A stretch of DNA of 34,912 bases, taken from an uncultured bacterium (GTDB lineage: Bacteria > UBP6 > UBA1177 > JAKLFG01). The DNA lies in contig CALMRE010000211.1 in NCBI GenBank assembly GCA_937871295.1, positions 1 through 34,912 of the forward strand, read 5' to 3'. Of this stretch, positions 4,800-27,383 are shown piece by piece. The position numbers and the translations under genes were made by a program. Below the pieces are notes generated by a model. The model was given only the letters and a program-made list of their open reading frames with translations. It was not told the origin of the DNA and did no database searches. Numbering within the stretch: the stretch's first letter is position 1; each line of letters opens with the position of its first letter.

Positions 4800-6164
4800 A
4801 TGAAAAGAATAACATGGCTTGCACTCATGGCGGCGCTTCTGCTGTGGGCCTGCGGCGAATCGGATCCGTCGGTGGAGTCCGACACCGATACGGCGACCGA
4901 CGACACCGTCACCGACGATACGGTGACCGATGATGTCGTCATCGACGATCAGACGGATCAGTCAGATCAGACCGATCAGTCGGATCAAACGGTCACCGAC
5001 GACACCCTTCCCGACGACACCGAGCCCGACGAAACGCCTGACCTGAGCGATGTCGAAGGTCCCGACACCGACAACGGGAACTGCTTCAACCTCGGGACCA
5101 CCTATGTCAAGGGCGACCTCGCCGATGTCGCGACTGGCATCTCGCTGGAGGTCCGCTCCAACGGCTGGGGCGTCCTGCTCGACACCCTGACGATGGACAC
5201 CGAAGGAACGATAACGCTCAATGTTCCCGAGGATAATCCCTATGACGGGACGACCCCTTCCTACTTCATCTACGAAACGGCCGACGGATTTTTCACCAAC
5301 GCCGCCTATGCCGTTTTCGGCGACACCATCACGGTCGATCTCGACCCGGTGATGCCCGACAACCTCATCAACGGCCGCATCTTCATGGTGCAGAGTTACT
5401 TCGGACCGACCGCGCTTTCCGATACCGCGATAACGGTCGTCGATACCAATAACGCCCTCATCGGCTGTTTCACGACCGACGGCACCGGCCGGTTCGTCAT
5501 CAATATGCCGGCGGGCGACTACAAATTCCAGTTCACCGACATGGACATGGCGCTCTACGATGAGGCGGTGACGACCACCGGCCCCGGCGACTACCTCGAC
5601 CTGCGGATACAGGCGCAGGCGCAGATGGCCAAACCGAACATCTATCTCTATCCTCTTGAAACTACGGAAGTTTCCGTCACGCTCGGCTTCCCGCAGGGAG
5701 GATTCATCACCACATCCATTCCGGAATACGGCGACGGCTGGCAGGTGACGGTCACCCCCGACGGCATCATCGACGGCTTGTACGGCTACCTGTTCTATGA
5801 GGCACAGCAGGCCGACCATTACCAGTACGCGGAGGGGTGGACCGTGGCGAAGGAGGGGCTGGAGAACTTCTTCCGCGGCAACCTCGCCGCCTACGGGTTC
5901 GTTGGCCGCGAGATAGAGGACTTCATCGCGTGGTGGATACCGCGCCTGACCGACGGCCCCTGCTACGACATCTACCCGCAGACCCGCGTCGAGATAGATC
6001 CGTTCGTCACGCTCGATATCGTTCCGGCGCCCGACACGCTCCAGCGCCTGTTTTACGCGACGCGGCCGACCGGCGACTGCGGCTCACACCTCGCCGAACC
6101 GGTCATCGCGCCCTTCATCCGTGACGGCTTCACCGCCCTCGAATGGGGCGTCATTCTGCGCTAG
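4800..6164 (+). CDS. Lipoprotein with acidic spacer and C-terminal KPxIYLYP domain
   Basis: A 454-aa predicted lipoprotein. Basic start (MKRITW), hydrophobic h-region and lipobox LLWAC with the anchor at Cys18. Residues 20-92 are a low-complexity Asp/Thr/Ser spacer including five 3-residue DQT/DQS units. The middle (95-275) is beta-rich, with repeated D/N-G turns. From residue 278 the motif KPNIYLYP opens a domain with TEVSVTLGFPQGG, a PEYGDGWQVTVTPDG segment, LYGYLFYEA, EGWTVAKEGLENFF and an IVPAPDTLQRLFYA end. I recognise this arrangement from other secreted bacterial proteins carrying a KPxIYLYP sequence, but know no assigned function. The ATG has GAAAGGGA just upstream. The product is expected to be attached to an outer or inner membrane leaflet and displayed outward. 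The 3' end converges on the HD-GYP gene with a 15-nt gap. Confidence 0.88.
   Translation: MKRITWLALMAALLLWACGESDPSVESDTDTATDDTVTDDTVTDDVVIDDQTDQSDQTDQSDQTVTDDTLPDDTEPDETPDLSDVEGPDTDNGNCFNLGTTYVKGDLADVATGISLEVRSNGWGVLLDTLTMDTEGTITLNVPEDNPYDGTTPSYFIYETADGFFTNAAYAVFGDTITVDLDPVMPDNLINGRIFMVQSYFGPTALSDTAITVVDTNNALIGCFTTDGTGRFVINMPAGDYKFQFTDMDMALYDEAVTTTGPGDYLDLRIQAQAQMAKPNIYLYPLETTEVSVTLGFPQGGFITTSIPEYGDGWQVTVTPDGIIDGLYGYLFYEAQQADHYQYAEGWTVAKEGLENFFRGNLAAYGFVGREIEDFIAWWIPRLTDGPCYDIYPQTRVEIDPFVTLDIVPAPDTLQRLFYATRPTGDCGSHLAEPVIAPFIRDGFTALEWGVILR
4947..4988 (+). repeat. Five 9-bp GATCAR-NNN tandem units inside lipoprotein spacer
   Basis: GATCAG/GATCAA recurs at 4947, 4956, 4965, 4974 and 4983, with ACN or TCN as the third codon (DQT/DQS). 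A second five-unit array with the same period lies at 8443-8487 in another lipoprotein gene. Confidence 0.85.
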
Positions 6165-8139: not shown

Positions 8140-10128
8140 ATGATACAGCCCGGAAAATATTTCTTTTTTGCACTCTTTTCGTTTTCTGTATTTCTGATCG
8201 TTGCCTGCTCGGAAGGAAAAACCGGCAGCGACAACGACACCGTCGATGTCGATACGGGCGATTCGTTGACAACGCCCGACGATGACGAAAAGGTGTTGCC
8301 GGAACAGGAAAAGGACGAAAAGGACATAAGCGACATAAAGGACAAGATGGCCGATGAGGACACGGTGTTGTCCGACGATCTGGTGTCCGACCTGTCCACT
8401 GAGTCCATGGTGTCCGACGCGGACGAACTGTCCCCGGATGATGATCAGTCGGATCCGTCGGATCAGACCGATCAGACCGATCAGTCCGACGAAATTATCC
8501 CCGACGCCGATGAGCCGGTCGACGATACGCCGGTCGCCGACGAGGACACCGTTATCCCCGATGTCGATGTCGACGACTGGGCGCTACTCGACGCCGACGG
8601 CGACGGCATCCCCAACGAACTGGAAGGCGACGGCGACTTCGACGGAGACGGCACACCCAACTGGCTCGACACCGATTCGGACGGCGACGGGATACTCGAC
8701 AGCGTGGAAAAAGGTTCCGGCATGACGCCGGTCGATTCGGACGGCGACGGGTACGCCGATGTGGTCGACAACGATTCCGACAACGACGGACTTTCGGACG
8801 CCACCGAGAACACCATCGGCACCGATCCGACCGACGAGGATAGCGATGACGATGGCATCACCGATCTGGCCGAACATGCCTACGGCTCCGACCCGCTCGA
8901 TCCGCTCGACGGCATCCCGCCCGAAGATTTCTATGTCATCCTGCCGTGGGATGCGACGGGCGACGAGGTGCGCTACCTCGAATTCCACACCGACATCGTC
9001 AAGGCCGACATACTGTTCCTCGTCGACCTTTCCGGCTCGATGGGCGAGGAGATAACGAACCTCAAGACCGGCATCACCGATGTCATCATCGATGGTGTCG
9101 CGGCGCAGATAAACGACGCCGCCTTCGGGCTTGCCACCTTTGACGACTTCCGTGGCATCAACAACAACGCCACCTATCCGAGTTTCGACGACCATATTCA
9201 TCAGATAAAACAGCCGCTCACCACCGCGCAGAGCGACATCGAAGCGGCGGTGGCGGCGCTCGGGCACCTTTCCAACGGCGGGCAGGAACCGCAGATAGAA
9301 TCGCTCTACCAGTCGGCGACGGGTGTCGGATTCGACGGCAAATTCGACTACCTCCATAATAATCCCCCCAACCATTACCCCGACACCTTCTATCCGCACA
9401 TCGCCTCTGCCGCCTGTTCGGGCGAGGAGGGGAGTATCGGCGGCGCCTGCTTCCGCGAACAGGCGATGCCGATCTTCATCATGATGTCGGACGAGGCCTT
9501 CACCTCGTGGCTGTTCAATACCGATTATTTCGTGTGGGACGCCGATCCGCAGTACGATCAGCCGCATACCCGCGATGAGGCGATCGCCGCGATGAACGCG
9601 GTGAACGCGAAATTCATCGGCATCAACTCGTTCGTCTCGGCCGGGTGGAATGTTTCGCCCGAGGCTGATTTCAAGGCGGTCGGCGCCGGCACCGGTTCGG
9701 TCGACGCGCTGGGAGAACCGTTCTACTACGATGTCGGCGGTGACGCTTCGCAGTTCTCGACGCAGATAGTCGACGCGATACTTGAACTCACTCATAATGT
9801 GAAACTCGATGTCGCGACGCAGAACGAATCGGTCGCCAACCCGCAGAGCATCGACACGACGCAGTTCATCACCTCGGTGGTGCCCCATCTGCCGCTGCCG
9901 GGGAACGGCTACGACACCAAGGACCTCGTCTCGTTCTACGGCGTCAAGCCGGGGACGCTCATCACCTTCGCGGTGACCTTCCGCAACGATATCTTTGAGC
10001 CGCAGGACATGGAGGCGACGCTCTTCACGGCGTGGATACATGTCATCGGCGAAGGGACGCTCCTCGACTCGCGGCAGGTGTTCATCATCGTGCCGGGTAT
10101 TATCCCGCAGGGCTCCGGCGGGGAATAA
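8140..10128 (+). CDS. VWA-domain lipoprotein with acidic spacer and thrombospondin type 3-like calcium repeats
   Basis: A 662-aa predicted lipoprotein. Hydrophobic N-terminus with lipobox LIVAC (Cys23), then an Asp/Glu/Thr-rich spacer (about 28-148) with a [15 protein letters not shown] array. Residues 151-258 hold DxDGDG-type repeats ([54 protein letters not shown]), the calcium-binding thrombospondin type 3 pattern, which stiffens in calcium. A von Willebrand factor A domain follows from about 287. Its metal-ion site is DLSGS (296-300), and an FGLATFDDF strand and MSDEAF segment fit the fold. Such proteins typically bind ligands or partners at the cell surface; the ligand is unknown. GGAGG lies 6 nt before the ATG. 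The linker DNA near 8308-8342 is almost identical to that of the lipoprotein at 22566. Confidence 0.92.
8308..8342 (+). repeat. 35-bp linker segment shared with lipoprotein gene at 22566
   Basis: The 35 bp here match 22800-22834 at 33 positions (differences at the 12th and 23rd bases). Both encode KDxKDI-x-DIK, including the ATA isoleucine codons that are uncommon in this GC-rich DNA. The identity is at DNA level, not only in protein composition. Confidence 0.8.
8443..8487 (+). repeat. Five 9-bp GATCAG-NNN tandem units (second array)
   Basis: Units begin at 8443, 8452 (GATCCG variant), 8461, 8470 and 8479 and encode [15 protein letters not shown]. The unit count and period match 4947-4988. 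Confidence 0.85.
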
Positions 10129-22565: not shown

Positions 22566-23357
22566 ATGAGGCTGTCCGCGCTCTGCGCCGCGCTGTTGCT
22601 TTTCCTGAGCGGTTGCGTTACCGAAGAGGAGGGCTGTTTCTACGACGAGGATTGCGGCGAAGGCTTTATCTGCGATACGGCGACCGGCGTCTGTCTGCCG
22701 GTCGAGGAGGGCGACGCCTATCCCGCCGACAAGGACCAGACCCTTCCCGACACCGCCGAGGTCGACATCGTCGATGTTGATATCGTGACCGACGATGGGG
22801 AAAAGGACGATAAGGACATAAACGACATAAAGGAAGAGGAGGCTGACGGAGACACCGCCGTGGCCGATGAGGACATGATCGTCACCGACGACACCGATAC
22901 CATCGACGCCGACACCATCGATATAGATGCGGTCGATGCCGATATCGTCGATACGGACACCACCGATGTGGATAACGCCGATGACGACATCGTTGAAGTC
23001 GACGCGGTCCCCGATGCCGACGCCGCGTGCAATTCCTGCACCTGCGAGGACTGTTCGGGTCACGGCGCCTGCACCACGGCCAACGGCTATGTCGAATGCC
23101 TCTGCGATACCGGCTATGCCGGAGGTTCCTGTCAGCAGTGCGATATCGAGTGGCAGGATCATAACGGCGACGGCATTTGCGAGGCCGACAACTGCGTCAA
23201 CGCGACCGATCCGATAGACGGCTGGCTCGACTGCGGCGCGCACGGGGTCTGCACCGACTGGAGTTTTGAAGCCGACTGCGACTGCGATCTCTATTGGACC
23301 GATATGAACGGCGAGTGCGACTACTGCTTCGCGAGCGATCCGAACGACTGCAACTGA
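22566..23357 (+). CDS. Cys-rich EGF-like lipoprotein with acidic spacer
   Basis: A 263-aa predicted lipoprotein. Signal MRLSALCAALLLFLSGC with anchor Cys17. A first four-Cys module (Cys24, 30, 36, 43; CFYDEDCGEGFIC) resembles the CxxDxDC repeats of myxobacterial surface proteins. Residues 52-153 are an Asp/Ile/Val/Thr spacer with repeated VDADIVD-type units. The C-terminal 110 residues are Cys-rich. CSGHGACTTANGYVECLC followed by GYAGGSC is an EGF-like fold, and a second looser repeat is CGAHGVCTDWSFEADCDC. Extracellular EGF modules usually mediate binding; the ligand is unknown. Disulfides imply an oxidising location outside the membrane. GGGAGGG precedes the ATG. It converges on the ferredoxin gene with a single base between the stops. 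Confidence 0.9.
   Translation: MRLSALCAALLLFLSGCVTEEEGCFYDEDCGEGFICDTATGVCLPVEEGDAYPADKDQTLPDTAEVDIVDVDIVTDDGEKDDKDINDIKEEEADGDTAVADEDMIVTDDTDTIDADTIDIDAVDADIVDTDTTDVDNADDDIVEVDAVPDADAACNSCTCEDCSGHGACTTANGYVECLCDTGYAGGSCQQCDIEWQDHNGDGICEADNCVNATDPIDGWLDCGAHGVCTDWSFEADCDCDLYWTDMNGECDYCFASDPNDCN
22800..22834 (+). repeat. 35-bp linker segment shared with lipoprotein gene at 8140
   Basis: Partner of 8308-8342, 33 of 35 bases identical, in the same reading frame and the same place in the protein (acidic spacer). Confidence 0.8.
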
Positions 23358-23654: not shown

Positions 23655-23687
23655 GAGGCGGAATTCGGGCATGCTGTTGGCGCGTCC

Positions 23688-26600
23688 TTAGCGGGTGGAC
23701 GGTGACTTCTTCTTGACCGTCTTCTTCTTGGTCTTTTTTTCCCGCCCTGTCAAGGGAGGGGTAGGGGCAGGTTTTCTCTGCGTCGGCTGGCACAAAACCC
23801 CCTTATTCCCCCTTGACAGGGGGACGCTGAGCATCTCCAGCAACTTATCCACGCGGTACTCCGACAGCGGCAGCGCGTCGAGTATCCGTCGGGCGAGGGT
23901 GGTGCGGAGCGCCAGTTCCTTTTTCTTCTTCGCCGCGGGCAGATCGCCGCGGAGGATGTCGAGCACCGCCATGACGAACAGGCCGTTCACGAAATGTTCG
24001 GCCGCCTCCTTGTTGAAGTAGCGGATCCCCTTGTATTCGTTCATCTGGAGGATGCGGTGCATATTCTCGTCGGCGAAGATATCGCTCATCATCGCGTGGC
24101 AGATATCTTCCGCGGGATACTGGCGCCACCAGTTCTGGTAGTGGACGAAGGCGCGGATGTGCCGCTGTTCCATCTCGGCGTGCCGTTCGCTGCGTCCCAT
24201 CGCCCGGAACAGGTGCAGGAACACCTCCTCGAGCAGGTATTTCCTGAGTATCGCGTTGGAAGTCGGACCGTCGTTGCGGTCGAGCGTTATCTGCGACAGA
24301 CGGGCGGTGAGGGTCCAGCCGAACATCATCAGGAGGGTGTGGATGTCGTCGCTGATGACCGCGGTCAGCCATTCCTGCGCCGGCGGATGAAGCGGGGTCA
24401 GATCGACGGCGGGCAGTTCGAGGAAGGCGGCCATGTCGTGGAGGAAGAGTCCCGCGAGCAGATCGGTGTCGCCGGCGCCGCCGTGGTAGAGCCGCAATTC
24501 CTCGAGGAAGGAGCGGTAGTGGGCGGCGAGCGGGAACAGGAGGTCGCGCGGCGTCCCGGCCCCTTTCTTCGCCGTCGTCGCCGTGGCGGTGCGGGCGGCG
24601 GCCAGTTTGCGGAAGGTGTCGGGGTCGGCGATGCGGCGGAAGGCGGCGTGGAGCGGCGCCAGCGTCAGCATCGTGAGGGCGCGGCCGATGTCGGGGACGC
24701 CCCGTCCGTCGAGCGCGTCATGGAGGGCGCCCCACGGTTCGGCGGCCGATCCGGTCACTTCGCGCAAGCCGACGAAGACCTGATATTTGTAGGCCCCAAG
24801 CGTCGCGCAGAAGCCCTGTCCGTTGAGGTCGTCGATGCGCCGGATATATTCGAGATCGGTGATATGATCGCGCAGGAGCAGATAGCGCTCCGCGCCGGGG
24901 GTGAGCCCGAGCCCCTCGACGAGCGTCCGCTGGATTATCCGGCCGCCTACCTTGTCGAGGAACCCGACCGATGTGCGGACCCGTCCCGTCGTTTCGCGGA
25001 ACTTGTTGTTGAACAGGATCAGCGCCCGCTCCTCGCCGTGCCGGTTGGAGTAGGCGTAGACATGCTCGTCGACCGTGCCGTCGTCCCGCTGGAAGTCGTA
25101 GAGGAAGAAGTTGTCGACCCCGGCGAACAGCCACCGTTTCCGCAGCAGCGGGAAGACCTCCCGTTCGTGGCGCTGGACCAGATGGTGGTCTATCGCCTCG
25201 TTCCAGTAGGCTTTATGGTATTCCATCCCGTATTTCTCGGTGAAGCCCTCTATCTGGCCGTGGCCGAACATCGGGAGGCCCGGCATGGTCGCCATAAGGA
25301 GGCAGACGCCGAAATACTTGTCGTCCCTGCCGAACTGTTCGACCGCCGTCTTTTCGTCGGGGTTGTTGAGGAAGTTGACGAACCGCTGGAGGATGTGCGG
25401 ATCGAACTCGAGGACGTTGCGTATCGAGAGACGGTACTGATCGTTCTCCTCGTTCTTGAGGAAGTGCATGAAGGCGCTGTTGTAGACGCGGTGCATCCCG
25501 AGGGTGCGGACGAAGTAGCCCTCCATCAGCCAGAAGGCCTCGGCCAGCAGCAGCGTGTCGGGCAGTTCGGCTTGTACCCGGTCGACCACCTCGCGCCAGA
25601 ATTCGTTCGGGATCTTTTCGTTGAACTGGTCGCGGGTCAGGGCATGTTCGGCGCGCGACGGGATATCGCCGCCGCTCCCCGGCTCGGGGAACCAGAGCCG
25701 CTGATAATGCCGTTTGGCCAGCGTCATCGCGGCGTCGAAACGGATGACCGGGAACTGCCGCGCCACATGGAGGATGGTCTGAATGACCGCTTCGCGCACT
25801 TCGGGTTTGGTGTAGTCGAGTTGCGCGGTGTCGTTCCACGGGTAACTCGTGCCGTCGTTGCCGTGATAGATGTAGCGGACATCGTTATAGCGGAAATCGA
25901 CCCGCTTGAAGGTGACCGCCGCATCGGTCTTGTCGTAGTAGCGGTCCTCGATGTAGATGCCGAGGTGCTCCTCGGTCGAGAGGTTCGGGCCGTTGTAGGT
26001 GTACGACGGGAACGGCGGCTGAGGCGTCTGGAGGAACCAGTCGGGGTGATGGTGGATCCAGCGCGAATCGATGGCCATGTGGTTGGGGACCATGTCGCTG
26101 GCGAGCCGGATGCCGCAATTCTTCGCCCGATCCTTCAGCGTCGCCAGCGCCGTTTCGCCGCCCAGTTCGGCCGCGATGGTGTAGTCGTGCAGTGAATAGG
26201 CCGACGCGGCCGCTTCGGGATTCCCCATGATCCGTTTTATGGTGCGGCTCGCGCTCGACCGTTCCCACACGCCGATGAGCCACAGGCCGGAGAAACCCCA
26301 GCGGGCGAGTTTCTTGAGTTCATCCTCGGGGATATCGTCGAGCCGGGTCAGGTGTTTCCCGTACTGTTTCGACAACTGGTCGAGCCAGACGAAGGCGTTC
26401 TTGGCGACCATCACGAGGTTGGGCATCCAGTCGCGGTCGGGCGAGAAGGCCTCGTATTCGTGGTCGCGCCATTCGGAGCGGGCAAAACCGCCGCCGCGCA
26501 AACTCTCGCCGGTGATGACCTCGCCGTGTCCCTCGACCGGGAAGAGCGCCTTTTCCTCTTCGCGCAGCATATCGCCGCCGGTCAGCACCTTCATGAAGTG

Positions 26601-27383
26601 GCCGCCGACGAACTGGAGTCCCCACGCCTCGCGGATGAAGCGCAACTGGTCGGCCAGCGAGTCGGGACTGCTGAGTCCCGGCGCCATGAGAAGATCGATC
26701 AGGTTCTTTCCGCCGGGGCCGAAGGCCGGTTTCTGCGCGAAAAATTCGCCGAGCGCCGCGGTCATCTCGCCGTACCGGGTCGTTTCGCGCAGCGGCGCGT
26801 CGCTGAAAAGTTCTTCGTAGCGTTTGAAGGCGGGGTTGCGGTTGGCGATATGGAGCATCAGCAGTTCTTCCAGTTCCACTTCCGGCGCCGGATCGTCGCC
26901 GCACTTCCCGGCCAGATAGTCCGAAAGACTCATCTCGCCGCGGTAGACCGGGAGCGGCGGGAACTCCTCGGCGAAACGGCGGACCAGCGCGTCGGTGTCG
27001 TCGCCGAACCGTTCGCGCAGGAAGGAGAGCGCCTCGGAAAAGAGGGTCGGCACCACCTGCGTGCGGTAGAGCCGCACGACATGGTGGAGCACCTCGTCGA
27101 TGAGCGCCATGGCGTTGAGATGGCCCGCCTTCACCGCCTGTTCGGGGTGGTTGACGAGATCCTTCTGTTCGTTCATCGTATGGGCGAAACGGCGCACCGC
27201 CGCGTAGTCGGGGAAGACCACGTTGCCCGACAGGGTGAATATCCGCTCCTCGAAACGGTAGCGGTCGCGGCTGGCGCGCGAGACATGGAAGTGGCGGAGG
27301 TTCCGGTCGGGACGGGCTGAGGCCGTCGCCGGTTCAAAGCGGGTGAGGGTCAGCAGCAGTCCGGGAAAGGCGCGATTCTTCAT
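23688..27383 (-). CDS. Large GH13 alpha-amylase-family enzyme
   Basis: A 1231-aa protein without a signal peptide, so probably cytoplasmic. The central barrel (about 360-780) shows the four GH13 regions: I DMVPNH (430-435); II VIRFDAA with nucleophile Asp550; III LLLAEAF with acid/base Glu615; and IV as FLNNPDE with candidate Asp676 in place of the usual HD pair. FGHGQIEGFTEKYG follows. Helical regions flank it (about 60-350 and 900-1160), containing FVHYQNWWRQYPAEDI and RGIRYFNKEA-like segments. Members act on alpha-1,4 or 1,6 glucans, by hydrolysis or transfer; the exact reaction cannot be read. Residues about 1187-1215 derive from a palindromic DNA element, and the last 17 are Lys/Ser/Thr-rich. 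It is transcribed alone from 27413-27441. Confidence 0.9.
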   Translation of the reverse strand: MKNRAFPGLLLTLTRFEPATASARPDRNLRHFHVSRASRDRYRFEERIFTLSGNVVFPDYAAVRRFAHTMNEQKDLVNHPEQAVKAGHLNAMALIDEVLHHVVRLYRTQVVPTLFSEALSFLRERFGDDTDALVRRFAEEFPPLPVYRGEMSLSDYLAGKCGDDPAPEVELEELLMLHIANRNPAFKRYEELFSDAPLRETTRYGEMTAALGEFFAQKPAFGPGGKNLIDLLMAPGLSSPDSLADQLRFIREAWGLQFVGGHFMKVLTGGDMLREEEKALFPVEGHGEVITGESLRGGGFARSEWRDHEYEAFSPDRDWMPNLVMVAKNAFVWLDQLSKQYGKHLTRLDDIPEDELKKLARWGFSGLWLIGVWERSSASRTIKRIMGNPEAAASAYSLHDYTIAAELGGETALATLKDRAKNCGIRLASDMVPNHMAIDSRWIHHHPDWFLQTPQPPFPSYTYNGPNLSTEEHLGIYIEDRYYDKTDAAVTFKRVDFRYNDVRYIYHGNDGTSYPWNDTAQLDYTKPEVREAVIQTILHVARQFPVIRFDAAMTLAKRHYQRLWFPEPGSGGDIPSRAEHALTRDQFNEKIPNEFWREVVDRVQAELPDTLLLAEAFWLMEGYFVRTLGMHRVYNSAFMHFLKNEENDQYRLSIRNVLEFDPHILQRFVNFLNNPDEKTAVEQFGRDDKYFGVCLLMATMPGLPMFGHGQIEGFTEKYGMEYHKAYWNEAIDHHLVQRHEREVFPLLRKRWLFAGVDNFFLYDFQRDDGTVDEHVYAYSNRHGEERALILFNNKFRETTGRVRTSVGFLDKVGGRIIQRTLVEGLGLTPGAERYLLLRDHITDLEYIRRIDDLNGQGFCATLGAYKYQVFVGLREVTGSAAEPWGALHDALDGRGVPDIGRALTMLTLAPLHAAFRRIADPDTFRKLAAARTATATTAKKGAGTPRDLLFPLAAHYRSFLEELRLYHGGAGDTDLLAGLFLHDMAAFLELPAVDLTPLHPPAQEWLTAVISDDIHTLLMMFGWTLTARLSQITLDRNDGPTSNAILRKYLLEEVFLHLFRAMGRSERHAEMEQRHIRAFVHYQNWWRQYPAEDICHAMMSDIFADENMHRILQMNEYKGIRYFNKEAAEHFVNGLFVMAVLDILRGDLPAAKKKKELALRTTLARRILDALPLSEYRVDKLLEMLSVPLSRGNKGVLCQPTQRKPAPTPPLTGREKKTKKKTVKKKSPSTR
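23742..23823. repeat. 82-bp palindromic element inserted in frame in the GH13 gene
   Basis: The ends are imperfect inverted repeats: CCCTGTCAAGGGAGGGG inward from 23745, and CCCTGTCAAGGGGGAATAAG inward (opposite strand) from about 23821. Each end contains its own small palindrome (CCCTTGACAGGG). The element is read in frame on the minus strand as PLSRGNKG...PTPPLTGRE, a composition unlike the rest of the enzyme. A half-element lies at 1063-1096. Compare Rickettsia palindromic elements and REP/MITE-type repeats. Confidence 0.75.

Follow-up and report, generated by a model that had tools for sequence, protein, structure and literature searches.

The window, that is the whole 34,912-nucleotide stretch of DNA analysed here, comes from an uncultured bacterium (GTDB lineage Bacteria; UBP6; UBA1177; JAKLFG01; contig CALMRE010000211.1) and carries on its reverse strand a long gene of the GH13 family. 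The 3' end of this gene holds a palindromic element, and the features that concern us are as follows.

23688-27383, reverse strand: GH13-family gene, open frame of 1231 aa, with its TAA stop at 23688-23690
23741-23824, reverse strand: REP-like palindromic doublet core (84 bp), encoding residues 1187-1215 in the GH13 frame
23794-23826, reverse strand: A unit, CGTCCCCCTGTCAAGGGGGAATAAGGGGGTTTT, a palindrome with a G-run and a T-run (profile match)
23776-23793, reverse strand: variable spacer separating the A and B units (alignment of 18 doublets)
23740-23775, reverse strand: B unit, inverted, AAAACCTGCCCCTACCCCTCCCTTGACAGGGCGGGA (profile match)
23691-23738, reverse strand: lysine-rich tail, KKTKKKTVKKKSPSTR, similar in kind in three family orthologues
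23656-23690, reverse strand: decayed REP unit of the GTAG type, opening with the GH13 stop codon; 26 of its 35 positions agree with the GTAG unit

The protein matches the Pfam Alpha-amylase domain (PF00128) modestly, at residues 355-732 with an E value of 1e-10, and scores far under all NCBIfam cut-offs. Full-length relatives are present in Chloroflexota, Acidobacteria, Lokiarchaeota and other lineages, and the protein possibly represents an unnamed GH13 subfamily. At its C-terminus the last conserved segment, SEYRVDKLLEML, is followed by a single serine, the roughly 28 residues encoded by the doublet (VPLSRGNKGVLCQPTQRKPAPTPPLTGRE), the tail KKTKKKTVKKKSPSTR and the TAA codon. The decayed GTAG unit that begins with this codon scored 35, whereas 628 control windows reached 27 at most, and no shuffle out of 2000 reached its score. 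An AlphaFold2 model of residues 880-1231, based on 15 aligned sequences, is confident as far as the last helix, whose end lies near residue 1185 (pLDDT mostly above 90), whereas pLDDT falls below 50 at residues 1191-1228. The repeat-coded residues and the tail are thus predicted to be disordered, which would explain why read-through is tolerated. Elsewhere in the window, putative secreted proteins contain aspartate-rich repeat segments (DTDTTDVD-like; 4870-5040, 8440-8540 and 22730-23020), partly in 15-nt steps.

Within the window, the motif CCCTTGACAGGG has two exact matches, at 23745-23756 on the reverse strand and at 23810-23821 on the forward strand. The preliminary description had placed an 82-bp element at 23742-23823, which located the palindromic doublet correctly but is slightly narrower than the 84-bp core. 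Profiles built without the GH13 copy recovered its A unit with 41.8 bits (E 3e-13) and its B unit with 27.1 bits (E 1.4e-8). As a single strand the doublet folds better than its dinucleotide shuffles (z of -3.5 for RNA and -2.6 for DNA), and the RNA hairpin is strong, with a predicted energy of -44.4 kcal/mol. A search of the window against Rfam returned no match.

We then asked how often the element recurs. A 96-bp query against the bacterium's own genome, a 271-contig assembly, recovered another five complete copies, at 76-81% identity, along with a split copy and several half elements. This genome contains 15 exact CCCTTGACAGGG cores and has no match to the reversed control pattern; three relatives from its family (those called G001, G002 and G004 below) contain 6, 8 and 13 cores. 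Across the controls, the reversed pattern gave 0-1 matches, as did five genomes outside the family. A longer A-unit pattern was found in 7 of 290 genomes, namely the four family members and three distant genomes with one copy each. The own genome holds about 12 of these A/B elements, which are nearly absent from more distant relatives. Eighteen doublets sampled from the four family genomes align well: the A unit reads CGTCCCCYTGTCAAGGGGGATTGAGGGGGTTTT and the inverted B unit TCCCGCCCTGTCAAGGGAGGGCAGGGTGGGTTTT, and the spacer between them varies. The copies and the open frame bear out the proposal of a repeated palindromic element translated in frame in the GH13 C-terminus; the element is multi-copy and, as described below, the orthologues differ at this place. 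The observation is thereby confirmed: the GH13 stretch is a repeat and is read in frame. Its kind is known, since REP doublets within genes, encoding 20-30 residues, have been described before (Di Nocera et al. 2013, PMC3733652).

On the basis of open frames and a small number of Pfam checks, rather than full gene calls, 17 of the 18 doublets lie between genes, many of them 2-25 nt past the stop of an adjacent frame, and only the GH13 copy sits in a convincing gene. Codon-usage scoring of the flanks as a way to find other intragenic copies proved too noisy, and its best candidate for a frame running through the repeat (L194) turned out to be intergenic. Some genes end inside the repeat: the frames of a lipocalin gene (in two species) and of a DUF559 gene enter the A unit for several codons and terminate at its TGA, giving the endings HPLVKGD and RPPVKGD, respectively. 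The TAG of GTAG units likewise serves as a stop codon. Of 17 intact doublets, 12 have a core of 81-82 nt, and no stop interrupts 46 of the 102 copy-frames (45%); together these make a chance read-through unsurprising. Such openness, and the in-frame reading within a real gene, could also be expected of a selfish protein-inserting element that, like the RPEs of Rickettsia, is specialised for in-frame reading; the preliminary description had noted a resemblance to the Rickettsia elements. The in-frame repeated palindrome in that comparison stands, but a single doublet of 18 inside a convincing gene speaks against coding specialisation, and we regard an RPE-type element as very unlikely.

The GH13 orthologues of G001, G002 and G004 are 80-81% identical across the protein (contig JAKLFG010000004.1, from the MAG 'bacterium isolate RA.bin151', is identical to G004 at this gene). 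In all four family GH13 genes a palindromic repeat is read in frame at the same junction, and all four have a lysine-rich tail. The sister species G001 carries there a 79-bp doublet of GTAG-tagged units, a family that matches 23 times in G001, 19 times in the own genome and 5-7 times in G002 and G004. G002 and G004 carry instead a short repeat, AAATCCCGTCAAGSCCCCTTTGACAAGGGSCCGGAAGG, which we call C-type, with 2 and 3 mismatches, respectively, to a 25-base pattern. C-type repeats are a true family, with 7, 8, 6 and 4 copies in the four family genomes and none in the reversed control or in six other genomes. C-type and A/B repeats look like related stock (together, CCC-type), and GTAG units look unrelated to both. 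The A/B profile matched the GH13 gene of G002 only weakly (E 0.04, with an alignment p of about 0.01), and the site was resolved as C-type. In line with the kinship of C-type and A/B repeats, at the RodA gene a doublet in the own genome and C-type repeats in G001 and G002 occupy the same place and have matching ends.

Two observations concern the CCC-type repeats in their own right. The window itself has a C-type repeat (TAAATCCCGTCAAACCCCCTTTGACAAGGGGGTGGAAGG) at 1049-1087 on the forward strand, beginning at the TAA stop of a 144-aa frame (617-1051). Another repeat, about 65 bp long (CGCATGAATGC...GGCCTACAG), splits CCC-type palindromes at one point (CCT / TGACAGGG) in three copies (L070 around 1560-1640, L078 around 1540-1620 and L063 around 620-720), as if it targeted them; these copies were found only through their nearness to CCC repeats.

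An assembly of 271 contigs is open to false joins, which repeats favour, and the element could in principle mark a chimaera; it lies mid-contig, however, and both of its flanks match one gene in the relatives, including the in-frame tail, so that we give this explanation almost no credence.

To examine the origin of the tail we compared 57 orthologues with a visible stop, comprising four family entries (three genomes, with one species present twice) and 53 others. Past residue 1186 the family entries extend by 47-67 residues, compared with a maximum of 27 and a median of 4 in the others, 51 of which extend by 17 residues or fewer; the own protein extends by 45 residues. The extension is confined to family orthologues, and a family-specific extension therefore begins where the repeats begin. 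We found no empty GH13 orthologue among the four family species, each of which holds a repeat at the junction, and for this reason there is no precise empty site. The simplest reading of these sequences is loss of the ancestral stop codon, which would have turned a repeat next to it into coding sequence, and an ancestral repeat may mark where the family tail began. Parsimony, not any direct trace, sets this order of events. The distant orthologue L091 has a lysine-rich C-terminus and no repeat, which means that the tail could predate the repeat.

The preliminary description had gone further in suggesting that this element created the basic tail of the enzyme. The tail does begin directly past the element, and the extension is restricted to the family, as an adaptive insertion of this copy would predict. 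Three orthologues, however, have lysine-rich tails next to other repeats and lack this copy, which leaves room only for a version with an ancestral repeat; the claim for this particular copy did not hold up, and adaptive insertion appears highly improbable.

The same alternation of repeats is found at other genes. Orthologous ends carry GTAG units in one species and CCC-type repeats (A/B or C) in another at the GH13 gene, a lipocalin gene, a glutamate-dehydrogenase-like gene and the gene at L176/L254, and the end of an acetyltransferase-like gene in G001 has GTAG and CCC-type units side by side; the last three of these genes were named by eye from sequence. By a rough estimate rather than a formal test, assuming about 15-30 sampled repeats per genome and 2500 gene ends, about 0.5 such coincidences would be expected over all genome pairs. 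It is tempting to speculate, at somewhat less than even confidence, that certain gene ends in the family are fixed slots at which unrelated palindromic repeats succeed each other, and that the GH13 slot became coding. With a coding slot, each species would have a C-terminal stretch made by a repeat, which alters whenever the repeat family changes. Literature searches turned up nothing on repeats succeeding one another at one site.

Succession at gene ends could also reflect function. The repeats may be 3'-end RNA elements, such as terminators or exonuclease-blocking hairpins: selection would keep a hairpin of whichever family at these gene ends, and its place within the coding part of GH13 would be a side effect. 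That the repeats lie at stop codons and between convergent genes, that the RNA hairpin is predicted to be strong and that unrelated families substitute for each other at four orthologous gene ends are all compatible with such a role. On the other hand, a promoter and terminator scan called nothing in the GH13 element, the ends of the ROK gene (G002 and G004) and of RodA (G004) have no such repeat, and the GH13 hairpin appears to lie within translated sequence. A functional RNA element is thus a possible explanation, which we consider rather doubtful.

We also investigated how the repeat might move. RAYT-like Y1 genes, which the preliminary description had proposed to look for, are indeed present (the own genome has four and the three relatives have nine), and two of the own proteins score just under the NCBIfam REP-transposase cut-off. 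None of the 13 loci in the four genomes, however, is flanked by A/B or GTAG units. All 13 genes are flanked by inverted ends of an unrelated GGGGTCA type, GGGGTCAG or GGGGTCAC, and we therefore rejected the Y1 transposases as linked drivers of the A/B repeat. Loci L023, L020-L022 and L159-L167 are examples of these inverted ends, and in one Y1 transposase a segment at the C-terminus matches DnaA (TIGR00362, E 2e-10). Single-strand hairpin transposition by a Y1 enzyme acting in trans is possible but unsupported. The repeats show no detectable target site duplication of the kind left by DDE-type MITEs (mean end match of 1.71, compared with 1.65 in shuffled flank pairs).

Altogether, we consider it likely that a low-copy, REP-like gene-end repeat became coding in the GH13 gene. 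The element is one copy of a repeat in which an A and a B palindromic unit, inverted around a short variable spacer, form one long hairpin. As a rule such repeats lie only a few bases from the stop codon at a gene's 3' end, or supply the stop themselves, and the repeat slot in GH13 lies where the ancestral protein ended. There, a CCC-type repeat of the ancestor would have become coding, most simply by loss or frameshift of the adjacent stop codon, after which the frame would have continued into the lysine-rich tail. From this repeat may derive both the A/B doublet of the own genome and the short C-type repeat of two relatives, and a GTAG-type doublet now fills the slot in the sister species. 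Read-through was probably tolerated because the usual core is 81-82 nt long, 45% of the frames are stop-free and the residues fall in a predicted disordered tail past the last helix. The repeat is perhaps best viewed as a tolerated, presumably neutral passenger of the GH13 protein. What is new here is a palindromic repeat in all four GH13 orthologues at one coding point, including one from an unrelated family, and this recurrence at a single slot is the part worth following. The four-species series presents hairpin repeats at gene ends that supply stops, take over the last residues or join the protein. A further suggestion from it is that one palindromic repeat preferentially follows another at a given site, which would bear on how repeats spread without a known transposase. 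The in-frame repeat illustrates how bacterial repeats can rewrite protein tails; the phenomenon is of a known kind, but its recurrence at a single site has rarely been seen.

Rickettsia palindromic elements (Ogata et al., reviewed in PMC10969869 and PMC2229807) are about 105-150 bp long and often lie in genes. The GH13 case resembles them as an in-frame palindrome in a conserved gene, apparently tolerated, whereas the A/B doublets are mostly 81-84 bp long and nearly always at gene ends, and the large share of copies inside genes seen in Rickettsia contrasts with one of 18 doublets here. The resemblance to REPINs (Bertels and Rainey 2011, PMC3116915), in which two inverted REP units and a spacer form one hairpin and single units occur too, extends to the inverted units, the spacer, the single hairpin and the half elements. 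In contrast to REPINs, there are about 12 A/B elements instead of hundreds, and no cognate RAYT lies beside the repeats. Of the features that define REP and BIME sequences, the A/B repeats share the repeated short palindrome, the inverted doublet hairpin and the mostly extragenic location near gene 3' ends; they lack the usual copy number of more than 100 per genome and a cognate RAYT flanked by the repeat. REP families smaller than usual are on record (PMC3733652). The GGGGTCA-type ends of all 13 Y1 genes fit the GGGGWSAS motif of TIRYT genes (Di Nocera et al. 2013), but the Y1 genes here are unlinked to A/B or GTAG repeats. A close parallel is provided by GTAG/CGTC REPs, which are short palindromes, mostly in inverted doublets, mostly extragenic near gene 3' ends and able to supply stop codons; the recB genes of X. 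campestris and X. oryzae have different REPs at about the same site (PMC3733652). Most A units begin with the CGTC tag and others with TGTC, CATC or CCTC, and B units do not; the unit consensus, TCCCCYTGTCAAGGGGGATTGAGGGGG, has neither the stem beginning AT nor the CCA tail of the CGTC super-family. The A/B unit thus differs from the GTAG/CGTC REPs in its stem start and tail, its low copy number and its lack of a linked transposase, and here one coding slot is filled in all four species, by unrelated families.
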